A DNA stretch of 44,115 nt from NCBI RefSeq assembly GCF_001419695.1, contig NZ_LIRG01000007.1, forward strand, positions 1,781-45,895, read 5' to 3'. A program made the position numbers and the translations under genes. Under the pieces are notes generated by a model. The model had not been told where the DNA came from, searched no databases, and saw nothing but the letters and a program-made list of their open reading frames with translations. Of the stretch, positions 9,368-41,618 are shown piece after piece (position 1 is the first letter of the stretch; each line of letters opens with the position of its first letter). The stretch is from Streptomyces prasinopilosus (GTDB taxonomy: Bacteria; Actinomycetota; Actinomycetes; Streptomycetales; Streptomycetaceae).

Positions 9368-10144
9368 TCACGCGCCGCGACCGGGCCCCCGAGCGGTGTC
9401 CAGCGGTCGGCGCAGGAACGGCGCGAGGAGGTTGCGGTAGCCGCTGGTGGGCACCAGGCCCAGTTCGTCGCGCAGTTGCCGGCGGTAGGTGCCGTAGAAC
9501 CGCAGGGCGTCGGCGATGTTCCCCTCGGCGAGGTGGATCTCGCTCACGCAGCGGTGGGCGCTCTCGCGCAGGGGGTCCGCCTCCAGTGCGGCCATGGCGA
9601 ACTCCATGGCCGCGTCCATGTGCCCGGACGCGCGCAGTCGTTTGCTGCAGGCCTCCAGGGCGTGCAGCCGCGTCTGACGGAAGTGTTCGCGCGCCACGAA
9701 CAGCCAGCTCTCGCTCCAGTCGGGCAGGAGGTCCTGGCGCAGGTGGCCCGGCACCGCCGGCGGCTGGACGGCGCACCGGTCGGTGGTGAGGTCGCGCACG
9801 ATGTCGTGGGCGGTGTGCAGATCGACCCGGACGTTCCGGTCCAGCCGGAGGTGTTCGCTGTCGCTGACGACGACCTGGCAGGTCCCGCCGGCACGGGACA
9901 GGCGCCACAGGGCGGAGCGCAGGCTGGCGGCGGAGCGCCGGTCGGGCAGGTGCGGCCAGAGCAGTGCGGCCGCGCTGCTGCGGGCCAGGCCCTGTGCGTG
10001 GATCGCCAGCAGCACCAGCACCTTCTGCGTGGTGGGCGCCAGGTAGACGTGTCCGTGGGGGAGACGGAGCGCGAAGTGGCCGAGCAGGGACACGTCCGCC
10101 CAGGGCCGGGGCGGATGATTGCGGTCGGCAGGGGGGAGGGGCAT
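9368..10144 (-). CDS. SARP/AfsR-type transcriptional regulator (winged helix + BTAD), stand-alone
   Basis: 258 residues. The ATG at 10144 is favoured because GGAG lies 8 nt upstream; an in-frame TTG at 10180 is the alternative. An OmpR-like winged-helix DNA-binding domain occupies roughly residues 15-100 (SLLGHFALRLPHG, TTQKVLVLLAIHAQ, LARSSAAALLWP, SLRSALWRLSR). A bacterial transcriptional activation domain of helical TPR-like repeats covers about 105-245 (EACSKRLRASGHMDAAMEFAMAAL, then AHRCVSEIHLAEGNIADALRFY and ELGLVPT). There is no NTPase or long TPR extension, so it is a small SARP. SARPs normally activate secondary-metabolite clusters, but no biosynthetic genes lie nearby. It diverges from the manganese catalase operon, so regulation of that operon or of distant genes is an inference only. 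Confidence 0.82.
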   Translation of the reverse strand: MPLPPADRNHPPRPWADVSLLGHFALRLPHGHVYLAPTTQKVLVLLAIHAQGLARSSAAALLWPHLPDRRSAASLRSALWRLSRAGGTCQVVVSDSEHLRLDRNVRVDLHTAHDIVRDLTTDRCAVQPPAVPGHLRQDLLPDWSESWLFVAREHFRQTRLHALEACSKRLRASGHMDAAMEFAMAALEADPLRESAHRCVSEIHLAEGNIADALRFYGTYRRQLRDELGLVPTSGYRNLLAPFLRRPLDTARGPGRGA

Positions 10145-10523
10145 GCCGAGTTCTCCACATGGTTTCCAGGAGACGAACAAGAATGTCCGAGTTGCCTTGC
10201 ATGGGGAGTTTCATGCATGCCCCGGTCGCCGACCCCCCGTCGCCGGGTGCCCCGCCGAGTGATTCCCGGCCCCGCGCGTAGGGATGGCGTCACCGGTGAC
10301 TTACCGCGACGTCGTCCCGCGGTTCTCGCCGCGCGGGCCGGCCGCCGGGCGAGGACCGGCGGCCGCCGGTACGGCCGTGCGACGCGGTGGGGCGATCGCT
10401 GGTAGGCGCACGGACACATGACGGTGACGGAGACGGCCTAACGTCGTGGCACGGGCGGACGAGCGCCGGCACCGGGCTTGTCCCCGCCTCCGCCGAAACC
10501 GCACCTGCCATCAGGGGAACACC
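10145..10523. promoter_or_regulatory. Divergent intergenic region, SARP gene / manganese catalase operon
   Basis: A 379-bp gap between divergent genes must hold both promoters. An imperfect operator-like palindrome is visible: TGCATG at 10198-10203 and CATGCA at 10212-10217 with an 8-bp spacer. A TAACGT hexamer near 10439 could be a -10 element for the catalase operon. No TCGAG-type direct repeats of classic SARP sites were recognised. Confidence 0.3.
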
Positions 10524-11432
10524 ATGTTCCGACACACTCAGAAGCTTCAGTTCGAGGCCCGGCCGGAGAAGCCGGACCCCGCGTACGCGCACAAGCTGCA
10601 GGAACTCGTGGGCGGCGCCTACGGCGAAATGTCCGTGATGATGCAGTACCTCTTCCAGGGGTGGAACACTCGCATCCAAGGCAAGTACAAAGACCTGATC
10701 ATGGACACCGCCACGGAGGAGATCGGTCACGTGGAGATGCTCGCCACGATGATCGCGCGCCTGCTGGAAGGGGCCCCCGCGACCGCGACCACCAAGATGG
10801 CGACCTCCGACCCGGCCGTCGGCGCGGTCCTGGGAGGCATGGACCCGCAGCAGGCCATCATCGCCGGTGGCGCGGCACTGCCCGCGGACAGCAACGGATA
10901 CCCCTGGAACGGCCGCTACGCGGTCGCCAGCGGCAACCTCCTCGCCGACTTCTACGCCAACGTCGCCGCAGAGGCGCAGAGCCGTCTGCAGACCGCCCGG
11001 CTGTACAACATGACCGACGACCCGGGCGTGAAGGACATGCTCAAGTTCAACCTCGCCCGTGACACCGTGCACCAGAACCAGTGGCTCGCGGCGATCGAGC
11101 AGCTGCGCGAGGACGGCCTGGAGAACGTGGTCGTCCCGGGTGGGTTCGAGGACGTGGAGTACCGCGAACACGCCCAGACGATATGGCACCTGTCCGACGG
11201 GGCCGAGACCGAACTCGGTCTGTGGGCCAGCGGCCCGACCCCGGACGGCGACCACGAGTTCAGCGTGCTGCAGTCCCCCGAACCCCTCGGGGACCTCTCC
11301 GTGCCTCCGCCGCCCGACCCGAAGCTGTACGCCACCTACGACGGCAGCCGGGGTGAGCCCAAGGGGCCGGTGCTCGGCACCGAAACCGGCCTGAAGGGCA
11401 AGATCAAGGACGCGATGGCGCCGGACGAATGA
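10524..11432 (+). CDS. Manganese (non-haem) catalase
   Basis: 302-residue ferritin-like enzyme that disproportionates hydrogen peroxide at a di-manganese site in the cytoplasm. ATG 10524 follows AGGGGA by the usual spacing. All five metal ligands of the family are present at near-identical positions to the Lactobacillus plantarum enzyme: E35 (GEMSVMMQYLFQGW), E66 and H69 (TEEIGHVEM), E150 (NVAAEAQSRLQ) and H183 (ARDTVHQNQW). The carboxy-terminal extension (DGAETELGLWASGP, PPPPDPKLYATYDG) is typical of long actinobacterial and bacilli forms. It is the first gene of an apparent three-gene unit ending in an NRAMP transporter, which could supply its Mn cofactor. No defects were seen. Confidence 0.95.
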   Translation: MFRHTQKLQFEARPEKPDPAYAHKLQELVGGAYGEMSVMMQYLFQGWNTRIQGKYKDLIMDTATEEIGHVEMLATMIARLLEGAPATATTKMATSDPAVGAVLGGMDPQQAIIAGGAALPADSNGYPWNGRYAVASGNLLADFYANVAAEAQSRLQTARLYNMTDDPGVKDMLKFNLARDTVHQNQWLAAIEQLREDGLENVVVPGGFEDVEYREHAQTIWHLSDGAETELGLWASGPTPDGDHEFSVLQSPEPLGDLSVPPPPDPKLYATYDGSRGEPKGPVLGTETGLKGKIKDAMAPDE

Positions 11433-11441
11433 GAGCGCGGG

Positions 11442-11467
11442 GCGGGCCCGTCCGCCGGCGGGCCCGC
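11442..11467 (+). terminator. Hairpin after the manganese catalase gene
   Basis: GCGGGCCCG pairs perfectly with CGGGCCCGC across an 8-nt loop, starting 10 nt after the catalase stop. Because the next gene starts only 27 nt later on the same strand, it may act as a partial terminator. That would lower expression of the downstream membrane genes relative to the catalase. Confidence 0.55.
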
Positions 11468-11493
11468 TTCGGCCGTCCTTCGAGAGGATCACC

Positions 11494-11727
11494 ATGATGC
11501 GTCACTCCGTCGTCTCCGCACCACCGCGTCCCCTGGTGACCCGCCTCGTGCTGAGCGGCCTGTACGCGCTGTCCGCCGTCGTCGGACTCGTGTGCGGCGG
11601 CCCGATGCACCGGTTCCTGGCCGCGGTCCTCCTGATCACTGCCCTCGCGGGACTGCTGACGGCGCGGGCGGTGTGCCGCCCGGGCCCGTCGCGCGGCGGG
11701 CCCGGGCCGGGGAGGCGGCATGCTTGA
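11494..11727 (+). CDS. Small two-helix membrane protein, unknown function
   Basis: 77 residues with ATG 11494 preceded by GAGAGGATCACC, a good ribosome binding site. Two hydrophobic stretches are clear (LVLSGLYALSAVVGLVCGG and FLAAVLLITALAGLLTARAV), followed by a basic Gly/Pro-rich tail. Its end overlaps the start of the NRAMP gene by 8 bp, implying translational coupling. I do not recognise a family. Its position suggests an accessory to the manganese transporter, or it could be a neutral reading frame that supports coupled translation. Confidence 0.6.
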   Translation: MMRHSVVSAPPRPLVTRLVLSGLYALSAVVGLVCGGPMHRFLAAVLLITALAGLLTARAVCRPGPSRGGPGPGRRHA

Positions 11728-13039
11728 TCCGCTCTCCACCCGACGGGTGCCGGACACCCCGCTCGCTCCGCCGACCCGTACCGCCGAGCCCCTGGCGGAG
11801 CCCGCCGACAGGGGCCGGTCCGCGGCGGGGACCACGGCCGGTTCCCGACTGCGGATGACCCTGGCGATGCTCGGCCCGGCGTTCGTCGTGTCGGTCGCCT
11901 ACGTGGACCCCGGCAACTTCGCCACCAACATGACGGCCGGTACCCGCTACGGGCCCATGCTGCTGTGGGTGATCGCCGCCGCCAACGTCATGGCCGTGTT
12001 CGTCCAGTACCTCGCCTGCAAGGCGGGCGTCGCCACGGGCAGGGACCTCCCCCAGCTGTGCCGGGCGCACACGCCCCGCCCGCTGAACCGGACGCTCTGG
12101 CTGCAGGCGGAACTCGTCGCGATGGCGACGGACCTGGCCGAGTTCGTCGGCGGTGCCGTCGCCCTGCACATCCTGTTCGGCATCCCCCTGCTGCCCGCCG
12201 CCTTCATCGTCGCGGCCACCTCGCTGCTGCTGCTGACCCTCGCTCCCGAGGGGCGGCGCCGCTTCGAGATCGTGACTGCCGCCCTGCTCCTGGTCATCCT
12301 TGCCGGCTTCGTCTACCAGGCGGTGGCCGCCGGCGCGTGGAGCGGTGCCCTGTCCGGCATGCGCCCCCGCTTCGCCGACACCCAGAGCATCCTGCTGGCC
12401 ACCGGCATGATCGGCGCCACCGTCATGCCGCACGTCATCTATCTCCACTCCTCGCTGGCGCGCAGCCCCGCCCGGTCCTCCTGGGAACGCAAGCGCCGCC
12501 AGCTGCGCGCCCACCGCTCCGCGCTGTTCATCGCGCTCGGCATCGCGGGACTGGTGAACGCCAGCATGCTCACCATCGCCGCCGCGGCCCTGCACGGGAC
12601 CGGCACGCAGGACACGCTCGAGGCCTTCCATACCGGCCTCGGCAGTGTCCTGGGTCCCGGCGCCGCGTTCGCGTTCGCGCTCGCGCTGCTCGCGTCCGGA
12701 CTGGCCTCCTCGGGCGTCGGCACCTTCGCGGGACAGGTCATCCTGCGCGGTTTCCTCGGACGCCGCATCCCGCTGACGGTACGTCGCCTGGCGACCATGG
12801 CACCGCCCCTGGTCGTCCTCTCCCTGGGGGTCGAACCGACGCAGGCGCTCGTCCTCAGTCAGGTCGTGCTGTCCTTCGGCGTTCCCTTCGCGCTCGTTCC
12901 CCTGCTGGTCTTCACGGCCCGCAGGCGGATCATGGGGGACCTGGTCAACCGCTGTGCCACCACGGTGGCCGCCGTCGTGGTGAGCACCGTGATCAGTGTG
13001 CTCAACGTCCTGCTCCTCGTCCGCACCTTCGCGGGGTGA
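11720..13039 (+). CDS. mntH: NRAMP-family Mn2+/H+ symporter
   Basis: 439 residues, proton-driven divalent metal importer of the inner membrane. The metal-binding motif in helix 1 is intact (YVDPGNFATN; the Asp and Asn of DPGN coordinate the metal). The helix 6 motif also appears as MIGATVMPHVIYLHS, where the methionine favours Mn/Fe over alkaline-earth ions in characterised members. About eleven helices are evident. A disordered Pro/Ala-rich amino tail of ~40 residues precedes helix 1, and a start at an internal ATG (RMTLAM) is possible. Overlap with the previous gene indicates co-transcription with the manganese catalase. The 3' end converges with and overlaps a truncated methyltransferase frame. 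Confidence 0.93.
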   Translation: MLDPLSTRRVPDTPLAPPTRTAEPLAEPADRGRSAAGTTAGSRLRMTLAMLGPAFVVSVAYVDPGNFATNMTAGTRYGPMLLWVIAAANVMAVFVQYLACKAGVATGRDLPQLCRAHTPRPLNRTLWLQAELVAMATDLAEFVGGAVALHILFGIPLLPAAFIVAATSLLLLTLAPEGRRRFEIVTAALLLVILAGFVYQAVAAGAWSGALSGMRPRFADTQSILLATGMIGATVMPHVIYLHSSLARSPARSSWERKRRQLRAHRSALFIALGIAGLVNASMLTIAAAALHGTGTQDTLEAFHTGLGSVLGPGAAFAFALALLASGLASSGVGTFAGQVILRGFLGRRIPLTVRRLATMAPPLVVLSLGVEPTQALVLSQVVLSFGVPFALVPLLVFTARRRIMGDLVNRCATTVAAVVVSTVISVLNVLLLVRTFAG

Positions 13040-13658
13040 CACCGGCCGCGGTCGGGCCCCCGGAGCGTTCCCCGCCGGTGCGCGGGCGCCGCGTGACGAA
13101 GACGAGCTCCCGGCCCGGGCGGCCGGGGGCGTCGCGCACCCCCTCCACCGTGAGGCCCGAACCGTCCAGGTCCGCCTCGACCTCCCGCCGTTCACGGAAG
13201 CGCAGCGTCGAGTCCGACGTCAGCACCTGCCCGTCCGCGCCGAGGACGTACGTCCACCGGAAGGCCACCAGCGGCCCGCCCACCTCGGTCGCCCCGCCCC
13301 GGCTCTCGACCGCGCCGACGCCCGGGACGTCCGTCACGCGGTGCGACTCCTCCCGGTTCCACTCCTCCCACGCCCGCCGGGCCGGGTCCCGGGTCTCGGA
13401 CACCGGCCGGCCTCCGGACCGCAGGACCGTGTGGGCCCCGCGCAGGGTGTCCCGCCACGCCTCCGGGTCGATGATGGCCCGGGCGACGTTCGCCGTCATG
13501 GTCGCCGGATCGACCCGCGGTGGCGGGAGCGCCGTCACGTCGCAGTGGACCCGGCGCACCCGGTCGCCGCCCGGCTTGGCCCGGGCCACCTCGAGGGACG
13601 CCCCGGCGGGATCGACGCCGATGACCTCGATCCCGCGCTCGGCCAGGAACAGGGCGGG
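13002..13658 (-). pseudogene. Class I SAM-dependent methyltransferase, 5' end removed by an IS6 copy
   Basis: The frame reads TAPALFLAERGIEVIGVDPA (motif II strand and acidic residue), then HCDVTALPP, TANVARAIIDPEAWRDTLRGA, VLRSGGRPVSETRDPARRAWEEWNREES and a beta-sheet-rich carboxy half. This is the small methyltransferase family common in Streptomyces. The glycine-rich SAM motif I (LDLGCGTG) that should immediately precede is absent: at 13659 the sequence becomes the terminal repeat of an IS6-family element. Any start codon used now would lie in the IS. Without motif I the product should not bind SAM. The 3' end overlaps the convergent transporter gene by about 38 bp. Confidence 0.8.
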
Positions 13659-14213
13659 TGCTGTCACGTTGGCCGACCGGGTGGGATGATCTTCGGGTGG
13701 TCATGATGAAGGGGGGACCGCCCATGGACAGGGCGCCGTCGTGCAGGGGGCATCGGTACCCGGTCGAGGTGATCTCGCACTGCGTGTGACTGTACTTCCG
13801 CTTCCCGCTCAGTTTCCGTGAGGTCGAGGAGCTGACGCTGGAGCGCGGCGTGATCGTCTCGTACGAGACCGTCCAGCGCTGGTGCCTGAAGTTCGGTCAG
13901 CAGTATGCCAACGGGCTGCGCCGCCGACAGCCCCGGCCCGGCGACAAGTGGCATCTGGACGAGGTCTTCATCCAGATCAACGGTGAGCAGAAACACCTGT
14001 GGCGGGCTGTCGACCAGGGCGGGATGCTGCTGGACATCCTGGTGCAGAGCCGCCGGGACACGGCTGCGGCCAAGTGCTTCTTCCGCACGCTGCTGACGAA
14101 GACGGGCGAGGTGCCGCGGGTGATCGTCACGGACAAGCTCCGCTCCTACGGTGCGGCCCACCGCGAGGTCGTGCCCTTTCGTCGAGCACCGCTCGCACGA
14201 GGGGCTGCAGTGA
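13659..14213 (+). mobile_element. IS6-family element copy 1, 3'-truncated, transposase with stop and frameshift
   Basis: The left end (CTGTCACGTTGGCCGACCGG and GTGGGATGATC) matches the ends of the other IS6 copies in the window. The transposase frame from ATG 13724 (after GGGGGGA) reads HRYPVEVISHCV, then TGA at 13787-13789 where other copies have Trp, then LYFRFPLSFREVEEL, SYETVQRWCLKFGQQ, GDKWHLDEVFIQINGEQKHLWRAVD and VIVTDKLRSYGAAHREV. A one-base insertion near 14179 changes frame, and the element ends at about 14213. The last ~55 codons and the right terminal repeat are lost. Confidence 0.85.
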
Positions 14214-14991: not shown

Positions 14992-15970
14992 AGCGAACTC
15001 GTGCACGGTAGGCGGTGAGGCGCCGAAGACTTCGACATGGCTCCGTGTTCATGCCTGTCGTGCCGAGGCCAGGACCGCTGTCTGCTGGTGGGACAGCAGG
15101 CCGGCGATGGCCTGGACGGTGTGGCTCATGTGTTCGCGGCGGCCGAGGTAGCGGGTCAGGGTCCGCCAGTTCTTCAAGGGGGCGATGCCGTGCTCGACCC
15201 GGATCCGCCTCGAGGAGTGCGCCCTGCGCTGCCGCTCGTGCATCTTCTCGTATCAGTCGGGAGCGTTCTTCTTGAGCTTGCGGTGCGGCGGTGTGATCGC
15301 CCGGCCGCCGGTCTGCGCGCCCAGGCCCTGGTAACCGGCGTCGGCGAGGATCTCCACCGCGGGGCCGTCGGCCAGGAGCTCGACCAGCCCCAGCCGGCGG
15401 GCGTGGGTGATGTCCGCGCAGCTGCCAGGCTTGGTCGGGCTGCAGAAGAACACGCGGCCGTCGCCATCCGTGACGACCATGGTCTTGACCGCGTTCTGCT
15501 TGTTCATGCCGGAGATGAACCTGTCCCGGTCCTTGTGTCCAGCGGCCGGTCGGCGGACCCGAACCTCGGTGCCGTCGATGATGCCGGGCTTTCCGCTGGC
15601 GCCGAGGTGGTCGACGACCTCGGCCGAGGTCCGCAACCGCACTCCGGGACTGACGGTGCAGCCGCGCTCGACCAGCAGGGGTCGCACCTCACCGACGGCG
15701 CGGGTGATGGTGGAGCGATCCACCCCGAACCAGCAGGCCGGCACGTCATGTGTGACCCCGTGTCGGAGGTACACCAGGGTGGCCAAGAGCCGGTCGACGA
15801 AGACCAGCCGGTGCTTCACGCCGGCACCGATCACCCGCTTCCGCTACCTGGACGCAAGCCTGGCCTGGTGCCGTTCATGCCACAACGGACCAAGCTCAGT
15901 GCGATGGTCGCGCCGTCCGCCGAGACGCCGGGGGCTTCGGAGGACGGCGGGGCGGTGAGCGGGTGAGGTC
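14992..15970 (-). mobile_element. IS5-type (DDE_Tnp_4-like) element, long copy, inactivated
   Basis: The transposase read on the minus strand ends at 15049. It contains ELGPLWHERHQARLASR, a TAG at the following codon, RLVFVDRLLATLVYLRHG, VDRSTITRAVGEVRPLL, the first catalytic Asp in GIIDGTEVRV, the second region in VVTDGDGRVFFCSPTKPGSCADITHAR, and ILADAGYQGLG. A TGA at 15253-15255 replaces the Trp found in the other copy, and HSSRRIRVEHG follows with the last catalytic Glu. The right terminal repeat at 14992-15012 (CTCGTGCACGGTAGGC core) matches the ends of the element at 34474-35181, with substitutions. The left end near 15970 is degraded. It preserves a ~110-codon segment that the other copy lacks. 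Confidence 0.8.
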
Positions 15971-19922: not shown

Positions 19923-20634
19923 ATCTCGGTTCGGTAGCCGGGGGCGGTCATCCGGTGGCGGGGCCGGAAGTGGGGGAGAGGCCGCTGAACGCGGCCAGGA
20001 ACCGCTGGGCTCCGCCGACGCCACGGAAGCCTTTCATGGCGCGCTCGCGCTGCCGGGTGGGCCGGTCGGTTGTTCTCGGCCCGGTTGTTCAGGCTCTTGT
20101 GAGCACGGTGCTCGACCGAGGGCATGACCTGGCGGTGGGCGACGCCGTAGGAGCGCAGCTTGTCGGTGACGATCACCCGGGGCACCGTGCGCGTCGTCTT
20201 CAGGAGCTTGCGGAAGAAGCGTCGGGCCGTGGCCTTGTCCCGCCGGTTCTGCGCGGGGATTTCCAGGACGGTGCCGTCGGCGTCGACGGCCCGCTACAGG
20301 TACTTCAGCTCACCGTTGATCTTGATGAAGACCTCGTCCAGGTGCCACTTGTCACCCGGACGAGGACGCCGGCGGCGCAGCACGTTGGCGTAGGCCTGCC
20401 CGAACTTGGCGCACCACCGCCGGACGGTTTCGTAGGAGACGACCACGCCGCGCTCGAGCATCAGTTCCCCGGCCTCCCGGAACGACAGCGGGAACCGGTG
20501 GTACAGCCACACGCAGTGGGGGATGATCTCGACGGGGTACCGGTGCCCCCGGACGGCGATACGGACGCCACAAGCAGTCCCCTCCCCGATACGACCTCCA
20601 CGAAGATCATCCCATGCCGGTCAGCCAACGTGAC
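19919..20634 (-). mobile_element. IS6-family element copy 2b, 3'-truncated, inactivated
   Basis: The terminal repeat CGTTGTCACGTTGG (minus strand) lies at about 20622-20635. The transposase then reads WLYHRFPLSFREAGELMLERG, SYETVRRWCAKFGQAYAN, GDKWHLDEVFIKINGELKYL, a TAG at 20294-20296 in place of Trp, RAVDADG, VIVTDKLRSYGVAHRQVMPS and, after a frame change, RQRERAMKGFRGVGGAQRF. It ends at TEM near 19923. The upstream part of the gene is also frame-shifted near 20540. The last ~20 codons and the distal repeat are missing. Confidence 0.8.
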
Positions 20635-22464: not shown

Positions 22465-23311
22465 CGTTGTCACGTTGACGAGGATGTGATCACTTGACGC
22501 CATGTCAGGTGTTGTGGGGATCCGGGGGTCTGGGCTCAGGCCCCCACGGGCGGGCCGACGCTGCCGGTGATCTGAGCCCAGATCACGAAGCGGATAGTCG
22601 TCTCGGCGTGGTATGTGGTGGCGGTGGGGCCGGAAGTGCGGTGAGATGTCGCTGAACGCGGCCAGGAACCGCTGGGCTCCGCCGGTGCTGCGGAAGCCCT
22701 TCATGGCGCGTTCGCGCTGCCGTGTGGGCTGGTGGCTGTTCTCTGCCCGGTTGTTGAGGCCCTTGTGCGAGCGGTGTTCCACGCAGGGCATGACCTCGCG
22801 GTGGGCCGCGCCGTAGGAGCGGAGCCTGTCGGTGACGATCACCCTCGGCACCGTGCGGGTCTTCTTCAGCAGCCTGCGGAAGAAGCGCCGGGCCGCGGCC
22901 GTGTCCCGGCGGGACTGGACCAGGATGCCGGGCACGGTGCCGTCGGCGTCGACGGCCCGCCACAGGTACTTCCGTTCCTCGTTGATTTTGATGAAGACCT
23001 CGCCCAGGTGCCATTTATCCCCGGGCCGGGGCCGTCTCCGGCGCAGGCCGTCGGAGTATGCCTGCCCGAACTTCGCGCACCAGCGCCGGACCGTCTCGTG
23101 GGGGACGAGCACGCCGCGCTCGAGCATCAGCTCCTCGACCTCGCGGAAGCCGAGCGGGAAGCGGAAGTACCGCCACACCCAGTGTGCGATGACCTCGACC
23201 GGGTACCGGTGCCCCTTGTAAGACGGCGGCGTACTGCCCACGGATAACCCCCTCCGCGCGACGACACCCGGGCGGTCGAGGCCATCGGTGCGGTGATCAT
23301 GCAAGCGGTCA
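22464..23311 (-). mobile_element. IS6-family element copy 4, nearly full length, C-terminal frameshift
   Basis: The right terminal repeat GCGTTGTCACGTTG is at 22464-22477. The transposase starts at GTG 23241 (GGAGGGGG upstream) and reads PPSYKGHRYPVEVIAHWVW, FREVEELMLERGVLVPHETV, CAKFGQAYSDGLRRRRPRPG, DKWHLGEVFIKINEERKYLW, QSRRDTAAARRFFRRL and VIVTDRLRSYGAAHREVMP with no stop as far as ISPHFRP. A deletion of about 10-11 bp near 22610 then shifts the frame, so the closing block IRFVIWAQITG is out of frame before the intended stop at 22536. In the catalytic motif WHLDEVF the Asp is replaced by Gly (WHLGEVF), which would remove the first DDE residue. The left terminal repeat is not recognisable beyond TGACCG at 23306-23311. 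Confidence 0.85.
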
Positions 23312-34473: not shown

Positions 34474-35181
34474 CTAACGAGCTCGTGCACGGTAGGCGGT
34501 GAGACGTCGAGCCTGAATGGTTGATCATGGTCAGGTGGTGGGGAACTCGACGCGTGCGGTGATCATCGGTAATCGGAGGATCACGGGCCTGTCGGCCGGC
34601 GTGACTGCTGAGCTTGGTCCGTTGTGGCAGGAGCGTCACCAGGCCAGGCTTGCGTCCCGGCCGCGGAAGCGGGCCGTGGGCGCGGGTGCGAAGGTCGTCA
34701 CAGACGGGGACGGCCGCGTGCTGTGGTGCAGCCCAGCTCGTCCCGCAAGCTGCGCGGACATCACCCACGCTCGCCAGTCAGGGCTGGTCAAGCTCCTGGC
34801 CGACGGACCCGCGGTGGAGATCCTCGCCGACGCCGGCTACCAGGGCCTGGGCGCCCAGACCGGCGGACGGGTGATCACACCACCACACCGCAAGTTCAAA
34901 AAGAACGCCCCGGACTGGTACGAGGAGATTCACGAACGACAGCGCAAAGCCCACTCCTCACGCCGCATCCGGGTCGAACACGGCACCGCCCACCTGAAGA
35001 ACTGGCGGGTCCTGGCCCGCCACCTCGGCCGCCGCGAGCACATGAACGACACCGTCCAGGCCGTCGCCGGACTGCTGTCTCACCAGCAGACCGCGGACCT
35101 GACATCGGCACGGCAGATGTGAACATCAAGCCCCGCCGACATCCTCGACACCTTCCTGCCTACCGTGCACGAGCTCGTTAG
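34474..35181 (+). mobile_element. IS5-type element, internally deleted, with perfect 24-bp terminal repeats
   Basis: Positions 34474-34497 and 35158-35181 are perfect inverted repeats (beginning CTAACGAGCTCGTGCACGG). The single gene, 34517-35122, has no stop or shift and encodes 201 residues: ELGPLWQERHQARLASRPRK and AVGAGAK, then directly VVTDGDGRVLWC, ILADAGYQGLG, WYEEIHERQRKAHSSRRIRVEHG and AGLLSHQQTA. Compared with the long copy at 14992-15970 about 110 codons are missing in frame at about 34690, including the helix-turn-helix and the first catalytic Asp. The protein should not transpose by itself, but the intact ends could be mobilised by a full-length relative. Confidence 0.85.
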
Positions 35182-40760: not shown

Positions 40761-41618
40761 GCGTTGTCACGTTGGCTGACCGGCCTGGGATGATCTTGGA
40801 GTTGGTCGTGCCGGGGAGGGGGTCGTTCGTGTCGTCCGCGCCGCCGTCGTACAAGGGCCACCGGTACCCGGTGGAGATCATCTCCCACTGCGTGTGGCTG
40901 TACTTCCGCTTCCCGCTGTCGTTCCGTGAGGTGGAGGAGTTGATGCTCGAGCGCGGTGTGCTCGTCTCGTACGAGACGGTCCGGCGCTGGTGCGCGAAGT
41001 TCGGGCAGGCCTATGCCGACGGCCTGCGCCCGAGGCGGCCCCGGCCCGGGGATAGATGGCACCTGGACGAGGTCTTCATCAAGATCAATGGAGATCAGAA
41101 GTACCTGTGGCGGGCCGTCGACCAGGACGGCACCGTGCCCGGCATCCTGGTCCAGTCCCGCCGGGACACGGCGCGGCCCGGCGTTTCTTCCGGCGCCTGC
41201 TGAAGACGACCCGCACGGTGCCGCGGGTGATCGTCACTGACAAGCTCCGCTCCTACGGCGCCGCCCACCGCCAGGTGATGCCCTCCGTGGAGCACCGCTC
41301 CCACAAAGGCCTGAACAACCGGGCAGAGAACAGCCACCAGCCCACCCGGCAGCGCGAACGCGCGATGAAGGGCTTCCGCAGTGTCGGCGCAGCCCAGCGG
41401 TTCCTGTCCGCGTTCCGCGGCATCTCACCCCACTTCCGGCCCCGCCGCCACCTGATGACCGTCTCCGGCCACCGGGCCGAGATGGCCCTCCGCTTCGCGA
41501 TCTGGGACCAGATCACCGGCGCCGCCGGCCGGCCCACCACGGCCTGAGCACAAGCCCGGGCCGCCGGCCACCACGCCCCGACGCGCCATCAGACAGTCAC
41601 CCAACAACGTGACAACGC
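40761..41618 (+). mobile_element. IS6-family element copy 5, complete ends, single-base frameshift
   Basis: Perfect 14-bp inverted repeats GCGTTGTCACGTTG (40761-40774) and its complement (41605-41618) bound an 858-bp element. The transposase starts at GTG 40829 after GGGGAGGGGG and reads PPSYKGHRYPVEIISHCVW, FREVEELMLERGVLVSYETV, GDRWHLDEVFIKINGDQKYL and QSRRDTA. A missing C near 41169 (GGCGCGGCC versus GGCCGCGGCC in copy 4) shifts the frame. The rest follows in the next frame: RRFFRRLLKTTRTVPRVIVT, SVEHRSHKGLNNRAENSHQP and LRFAIWDQITG, stop at 41547. The best-preserved copy. No matching 8-bp target duplication is seen at its flanks. Confidence 0.9.

Follow-up and report, generated by a model that had tools for sequence, protein, structure and literature searches.

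A stand-alone small SARP regulator encoded divergently from a manganese catalase gene in Streptomyces prasinopilosus is likely to be a dedicated activator, encoded at the locus itself, of the operon comprising the catalase, a two-helix protein and an NRAMP transporter. From the genes, their synteny, a candidate operator and a SARP tree, all established by sequence comparison, I infer binding and activation by the SARP and a single three-gene transcript, as well as the metal of the transporter and the role of the small protein. In the proposed mechanism, SARP protomers would bind side by side on heptamers spaced 11 bp apart (consensus GNGACGG), the last of which would end 8 bp before the TARCGT -10 box, and the bound SARP would recruit RNA polymerase in the manner of AfsR. 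The operon would yield a haem-free catalase, its translationally coupled gene pair would supply a small membrane partner along with a Mn2+ importer, and enzyme and cofactor would thereby increase together.

The window analysed here is the whole stretch of 44,115 nt from contig NZ_LIRG01000007.1 (positions 1,781-45,895), part of a 6.4-Mb draft assembly in 1058 contigs. Re-derivation of its open reading frames left the placement of the four genes as the preliminary description had given it, with the small SARP divergent from the catalase, the two-helix protein and the NRAMP transporter (Table 1). The SARP frame is open from TTG 10180, and the ATG at 10144, which lies behind a GGAG, is its most likely start, giving a protein of 258 aa.

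Table 1. Features of the SARP-catalase-NRAMP region in window coordinates.
Feature	Position	Strand	Evidence or remark
Small SARP	9368..10144	-	Winged helix and BTAD, catalase-linked subgroup; PF03704 at 4e-14, profile, Foldseek, tree
Degenerate upstream heptamer GACACAT	10413..10419	+	11 bp from next heptamer; weak in the window; GAGACAG in sister locus L003
Candidate SARP heptamer GTGACGG	10424..10430	+	8 bp upstream of -10 box
Predicted catalase promoter -10 box TAACGT	10439..10444	+	TAGCGT in most relatives having one
Putative manganese catalase, 302 aa	10524..11432	+	PF05067 at 2e-96; NCBIfam ManCatBAC NF052557, 417 bits
Two-helix protein, predicted membrane, 77 aa	11494..11727	+	Related ORF in 6/6 Streptomyces loci
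Stop/start overlap ATGCTTGA, 8 bp, two-helix protein/NRAMP	11720..11727	+	[A/G]TGCTTGA in 6/6 Streptomyces loci
NRAMP divalent-metal importer, MntH type, 439 aa	11720..13039	+	NF001923, 469 bits

By family score (the NCBIfam cut-off for ManCatBAC is 350 bits) and by ligand positions, the first gene of the operon encodes a putative manganese catalase. All five metal ligands reported earlier were recovered: E35, E66, H69, E150 and H183 align with 1jku, which I take to be the L. plantarum manganese catalase with its metal ligands at these E/E/H/E/H positions, and they are invariant in 128/128 aligned catalases. A149 and D180 replace R147 and E178 of 1jku, positions that presumably have a role near the metal site; A149 is found in 113/128 and D180 in 124/128 catalases. 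Homology to 1jku (PF05067) extends over the whole length, and the present enzyme differs further in its pairing with a SARP and a metal transporter. The transporter matched structurally solved MntH proteins at 1e-110, in an alignment that includes the DPGN and MPH motifs, and resembles the importers 8e6h and 6c3i as a member of the MntH subfamily, while here its start overlaps the two-helix gene. This 8-bp overlap, already pointed out in the preliminary description, is again 8 bp long, with ATG or GTG as the start, at all six Streptomyces loci. Between the window and its sister locus L003, dN/dS was 0.15 for the catalase, 0.28 for the NRAMP protein, 0.51 for the SARP and 0.86 for the two-helix protein, on which constraint is weak by this measure.

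The search for catalases in named records used the best 80 of 264 loci, a sample biased towards relatives of the window catalase, and more Streptomyces catalases may therefore exist. The nearest relatives within this sample were from Streptomyces (four loci, L003-L006), each with a divergent SARP (51-73% identical) and an NRAMP gene. The catalase is rare in the genus, being present in one of 295 sampled genus genomes, namely its own; the class sample added one more genome of the same genus (G555, locus L142), likewise with a divergent SARP and NRAMP. SARP, two-helix ORF, catalase and NRAMP occur together at 6/6 Streptomyces loci, window included. Neither SARP nor NRAMP was found near a Kitasatospora catalase that is 71% identical (L021). 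Outside Streptomyces, the SARP-catalase arrangement was found in a Nocardiopsis MAG and five Pseudonocardiaceae. One Actinomadura locus (L012) has the SARP directly downstream of the catalase, not divergent, and another (L049) has it behind the NRAMP gene, the SARP and NRAMP matches there both lacking their C-terminal parts.

The catalase was present in 65/394 genomes of the class sample. A profile built from 12 linked SARPs of Streptomyces, Actinomadura, Nocardiopsis and Pseudonocardiaceae was searched in the same 394 genomes, scoring at most six candidates per genome, and a match adjoined the catalase in 11 of them (G000, G527, G555, G369, G355, G354, G481, G658, G338, G506 and G412). Eight of these belong to families f26 and f28, neither of which supplied rows to the profile. 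Among the 13 best profile matches, 11 adjoin a catalase (the other two are in G521 and G344), as opposed to 0/40 of the weaker matches among those listed. A looser SARP scan of the catalase loci (E 1e-5) recovered no extra SARP beside a catalase. Catalase neighbourhoods covered 59 of the 65 class genomes (61 loci); those left out were from G297, G443, G452, G552, G576 and G584, plus a distant second catalase in each of G631 and G669, and none of these eight genomes had a match to the SARP profile. Ten loci taken as duplicates because their contigs were equally long, among them L158, which is also absent from the tree, were dropped before linked and unlinked loci, motifs and NRAMP genes were counted. 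Across all distinct catalase loci, 22/131 are SARP-linked, 19 of them divergently, and 109/131 are without such a SARP.

Linkage of SARP and catalase was seen in at least five families, and the genes further out differ. The proposal that the SARP belongs with the catalase operon held in Streptomyces (6/6) and finds support in the gene order of other families, in the tree and in the operator, but it does not extend to the 109 SARP-free loci, among them the Kitasatospora locus, and SARP linkage is thus confined to part of the Mn catalases. Unlinking of the SARP gene in most genomes, which the preliminary description had named as evidence against its idea, was accordingly not seen within Streptomyces, while over all loci the SARP is absent from most.

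The SARP tree comprised 22 linked and 49 unlinked SARPs (29 and 20 from two collections), with at least one gene entered twice (L104 = L258). The labels linked and unlinked required three changes on it, compared with a mean of 18.9 after shuffling, and 0/500 shuffles were as low. A main clade of 18 SARPs contained 17 linked members and a single unlinked one (L254; support 97/94). The five linked SARPs of Pseudonocardiaceae formed a separate clade (100/97), to which unlinked Streptomyces SARPs were joined with support 88/81. Both a single origin of the linkage followed by losses and two origins would fit this topology. Linkage, tree and operator agree in supporting a SARP subgroup that would be dedicated to Mn catalase operons.

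The SARP has a BTAD domain (PF03704). Its N-terminus gave no match to a DNA-binding domain (Trans_reg_C) in Pfam at E<=0.1, and the group profile aligned to AfsR through the recognition helix of an OmpR-type winged helix, matching AfsR (8hvr) and EmbR (2fez). The Pfam scan found no further C-terminal domain and no other family above the cut-off, as in a small SARP. The predicted model (pLDDT 78, pTM 0.49) shows winged-helix and BTAD strands and helices in the expected order, and Foldseek returned AfsR and EmbR as the sole hits at E<=0.001 (probability 1); with a TM of only ~0.38, support for the fold comes mainly from sequence. AfsR residues T88 and R92 (counted along 8k60), which contact bases according to the available text of PMC10936776, align with S77 and R81, both of which are invariant in the 12 linked SARPs. 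Winged helix and BTAD are shared with small SARPs of the RedD, ActII-ORF4 and DnrI type, with the SARP domain of AfsR (8hvr, 8k60) and with EmbR (2fez), and so is a promoter layout with heptamers every 11 bp, 8 bp from the -10 box. Unlike these, the present SARPs are linked to a metalloenzyme and metal-transport operon across families and have their own heptamer, GNGACGG.

The SARP may instead activate the operon within growth phase, development or secondary metabolism, and not in a response to peroxide or manganese, a reading that is compatible with a dedicated activator and differs on the signal only. I consider it a serious possibility, if somewhat short of an even chance: the domain searches (Pfam, profile and model) found winged helix and BTAD and no sensor domain, and SARPs are described as secondary-metabolism regulators in the available text of PMC10972967, while the genes called around the operon include no recognised biosynthetic cluster and the linkage is repeated in several families whose outer neighbours differ. 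An antibiotic cluster-situated SARP was rejected, as no biosynthetic genes were recognised alongside; close to it the window contains transposase remnants, a metallo-hydrolase and two ORFs, one kinase-like and one methyltransferase-like. A survey has taken small SARPs that lie outside known biosynthetic clusters as beacons of undetected ones, and those outside antibiotic clusters amounted to 17.9% of its small SARPs (available text of PMC12224297). The present SARP likewise lies away from a recognised cluster, its partner here being the catalase operon. The unusual role ascribed earlier to a stand-alone SARP stands with respect to this partner and to the lack of a recognised cluster, but going by the 17.9% in the same text, and by the relatives found here next to contractile-injection genes, such SARPs are less rare than was implied.

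For a SARP dedicated to the catalase operon, a candidate operator lies in front of the catalase. The pattern GNGACRG-N8-TANCGT has its sole match in the window at 10424-10444, with 0.03 expected from shuffles. GNGACGG-N8-TARCGT, with the heptamer exactly 8 bp before the -10 box, recurs in 6/6 Streptomyces loci, and a strict GNGACNG-N4-GNGACNG in 4/6 (L003, L004, L006 and L142), the upstream copy being altered in L005 and the window. In 19 divergent regions, which were scanned from the SARP profile match so that a few start within the first SARP codons, 14 GACGG pairs lie 11 bp apart against 0.2 expected (0/300 dinucleotide shuffles reached 14), and pairs also occur at 22 bp (6) and 33 bp (6). 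The available text of PMC10936776 describes as common to SARP promoters a distance of 8 bp between the 3' repeat and the -10 box, and a repeat spacing of 11 or 22 bp. This layout was found in Streptomyces and some other linked loci, not in every one, and in the window itself it consists of one good and one degenerate heptamer.

Comparing linked with unlinked loci upstream of the catalase, heptamer-N4-heptamer was present in 10/22 versus 1/109, TARCGT in 12/22 versus 2/109, GNGACNG-N8-TANNNT in 9/22 versus 0/109 (p 2e-8), and either heptamer-N8-TANNNT or two heptamers 11, 22 or 33 bp apart in 13/22 versus 2/109 (p 1.6e-10); these p-values overstate the enrichment because the motif was derived from linked loci, which are themselves related, and the unlinked loci serve as the control. 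Of the 22 linked loci, nine passed neither strict motif test (L049, L067, L069, L075, L078, L212, L213, L217 and L218), although on visual inspection variant heptamers can be seen in L049 and the Pseudonocardiaceae among them. Runs of repeats occur at the f26 and f28 loci, but TARCGT does not. Genome-wide, GNGACRG-N8-TANCGT matched twice in G000, twice in G555 and once in G527, one match in each lying at the catalase promoter, while among the f26 genomes scanned G354 had four matches, none at the catalase, and G481 had none; the f26 operator therefore differs, and the pattern alone defines no regulon. Catalase-free genomes gave five matches (G013) and one (G107) and reversed-pattern controls 0-2 per genome, so that single matches are near background. 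A wider regulon was rejected, with one extra match each in G000 and G555 only, that of G555 8 bases ahead of a same-strand called ORF and that of G000 between called ORFs.

Because the intergenic region is common to the divergent genes and each genome has other SARP-like candidates, the repeats could also belong to the SARP's own promoter or be bound by another activator of SARP/AfsR type, with a classical peroxide or manganese regulator running the catalase. This is improbable, given that the repeats stand at a fixed distance from a catalase-directed -10 box where TARCGT is present, that in Actinomadura L012 they stay at the catalase promoter although the SARP lies downstream, that the heptamer is unlike the AfsR sequence CGTT(T/C)ATCG (available text of PMC10972967), and that SARP-free loci are mostly without the motif (some form in 2/109). 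A chance neighbourhood, in which the catalase would have an unrelated SARP next to it within a transposon-rich island, would suit the many transposase remnants in the window and the dozens of candidates per genome in the initial SARP search, but is very improbable and is contradicted by the linkage in at least five families, the clustering on the tree and the operator enrichment.

Turning from the putative dedicated activator to the transporter, NRAMP adjoins the catalase in 14/22 linked versus 7/109 unlinked loci, these seven catalase-NRAMP pairs managing without such a SARP. The 77-residue protein, called undescribed earlier, indeed matched no family in Pfam or NCBIfam. Relatives that are 31-62% identical lie between catalase and NRAMP at 6/6 Streptomyces loci, and the AlphaFold model places helices at residues 14-34 and 37-60 with low confidence (pLDDT 65). 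Across the 295 genus genomes, its own copy alone was a strong match; five were weak (E 3e-4 to 7e-3), two of them with internal stops. Locus L003 has a second NRAMP (10729-12648 of that locus, minus strand) in one open frame with an upstream two-helix-like stretch, no stops lying between, and this stretch is 43% identical to the two-helix protein over 65 residues (E 2e-4). It may be a natural fusion, and the fused frame points to joint action of small protein and transporter, provided that translation starts upstream of the two-helix-like stretch.

In family f26, a relative of the PF11449 10-TM protein lies downstream of the catalase instead of NRAMP (5/5 loci). PF11449 was confirmed in L214 and the NCBIfam family 'arsenic efflux' in L214 and L219; the remaining relatives were found by tblastn (64-78%), in two pieces in L218. 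The unlinked locus L232 also has a PF11449-type 10-TM protein. A small hydrophobic two-helix ORF follows the 10-TM gene in L214, L215, L219 and, as a gene call, L216, and was likened to the 77-aa protein by helix pattern, not by sequence relation.

The operon could act as the self-contained peroxide-defence unit envisaged in the preliminary description. A more far-reaching and rather doubtful proposal is that a SARP subfamily of several actinobacterial families might be the peroxide/manganese regulator of a catalase operon with interchangeable metal transporters (NRAMP, or the PF11449 10-TM protein in f26), to which some lineages would add the two-helix membrane protein as a transporter subunit or brake. 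None of the papers in the library searched mentions 'SARP' together with 'manganese catalase', and broader searches gave no such link among the matches listed (titles and abstract starts). SARPs, treated as markers of antibiotic clusters, would gain a conserved target outside clusters with a defined candidate operator, and genome mining with orphan small SARPs as beacons, as in the available text of PMC12224297, would need to exclude the catalase-linked subgroup. In addition, a set of Mn catalases now has a candidate regulator, and NRAMP a candidate small partner.

Several further observations were made around the operon and its relatives. A methyltransferase-like ORF (window 13002-13667), convergent with NRAMP, covers the last 38 bases of the latter and perhaps lacks its N-terminus. 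Transposase-like remnants, named by eye and some of them antisense ORFs, lie at window positions 13850-14161, 15049-15834, 20294-20512, 22832-23221, 34814-35122 and 40790-41547, and their number suggests that the operon region is mobile and eroded. In L217 the catalase is split across two frames, through a real lesion or an assembly error, beside NRAMP and a co-directional SARP. Small called ORFs of 52-84 aa, similar in look through RxW and a C-terminal WL, lie near or just downstream of the SARP in L212, L217, L253 and L254; they possibly encode a partner protein, and Pfam gave no family above the cut-off for the three that were scanned. Among related, unlinked stand-alone SARPs of Streptomyces, 5/20 loci (L166, L167, L169, L170 and L171) adjoin genes of contractile-injection type (by eye, tail sheath and tube), and the SARP of L253 is near a sheath-like gene too. 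The intergenic regions of those five loci have in common ACGTCGC/ACGTCAC at a spacing of 11 bp, which reads GNGACGT on the opposite strand.
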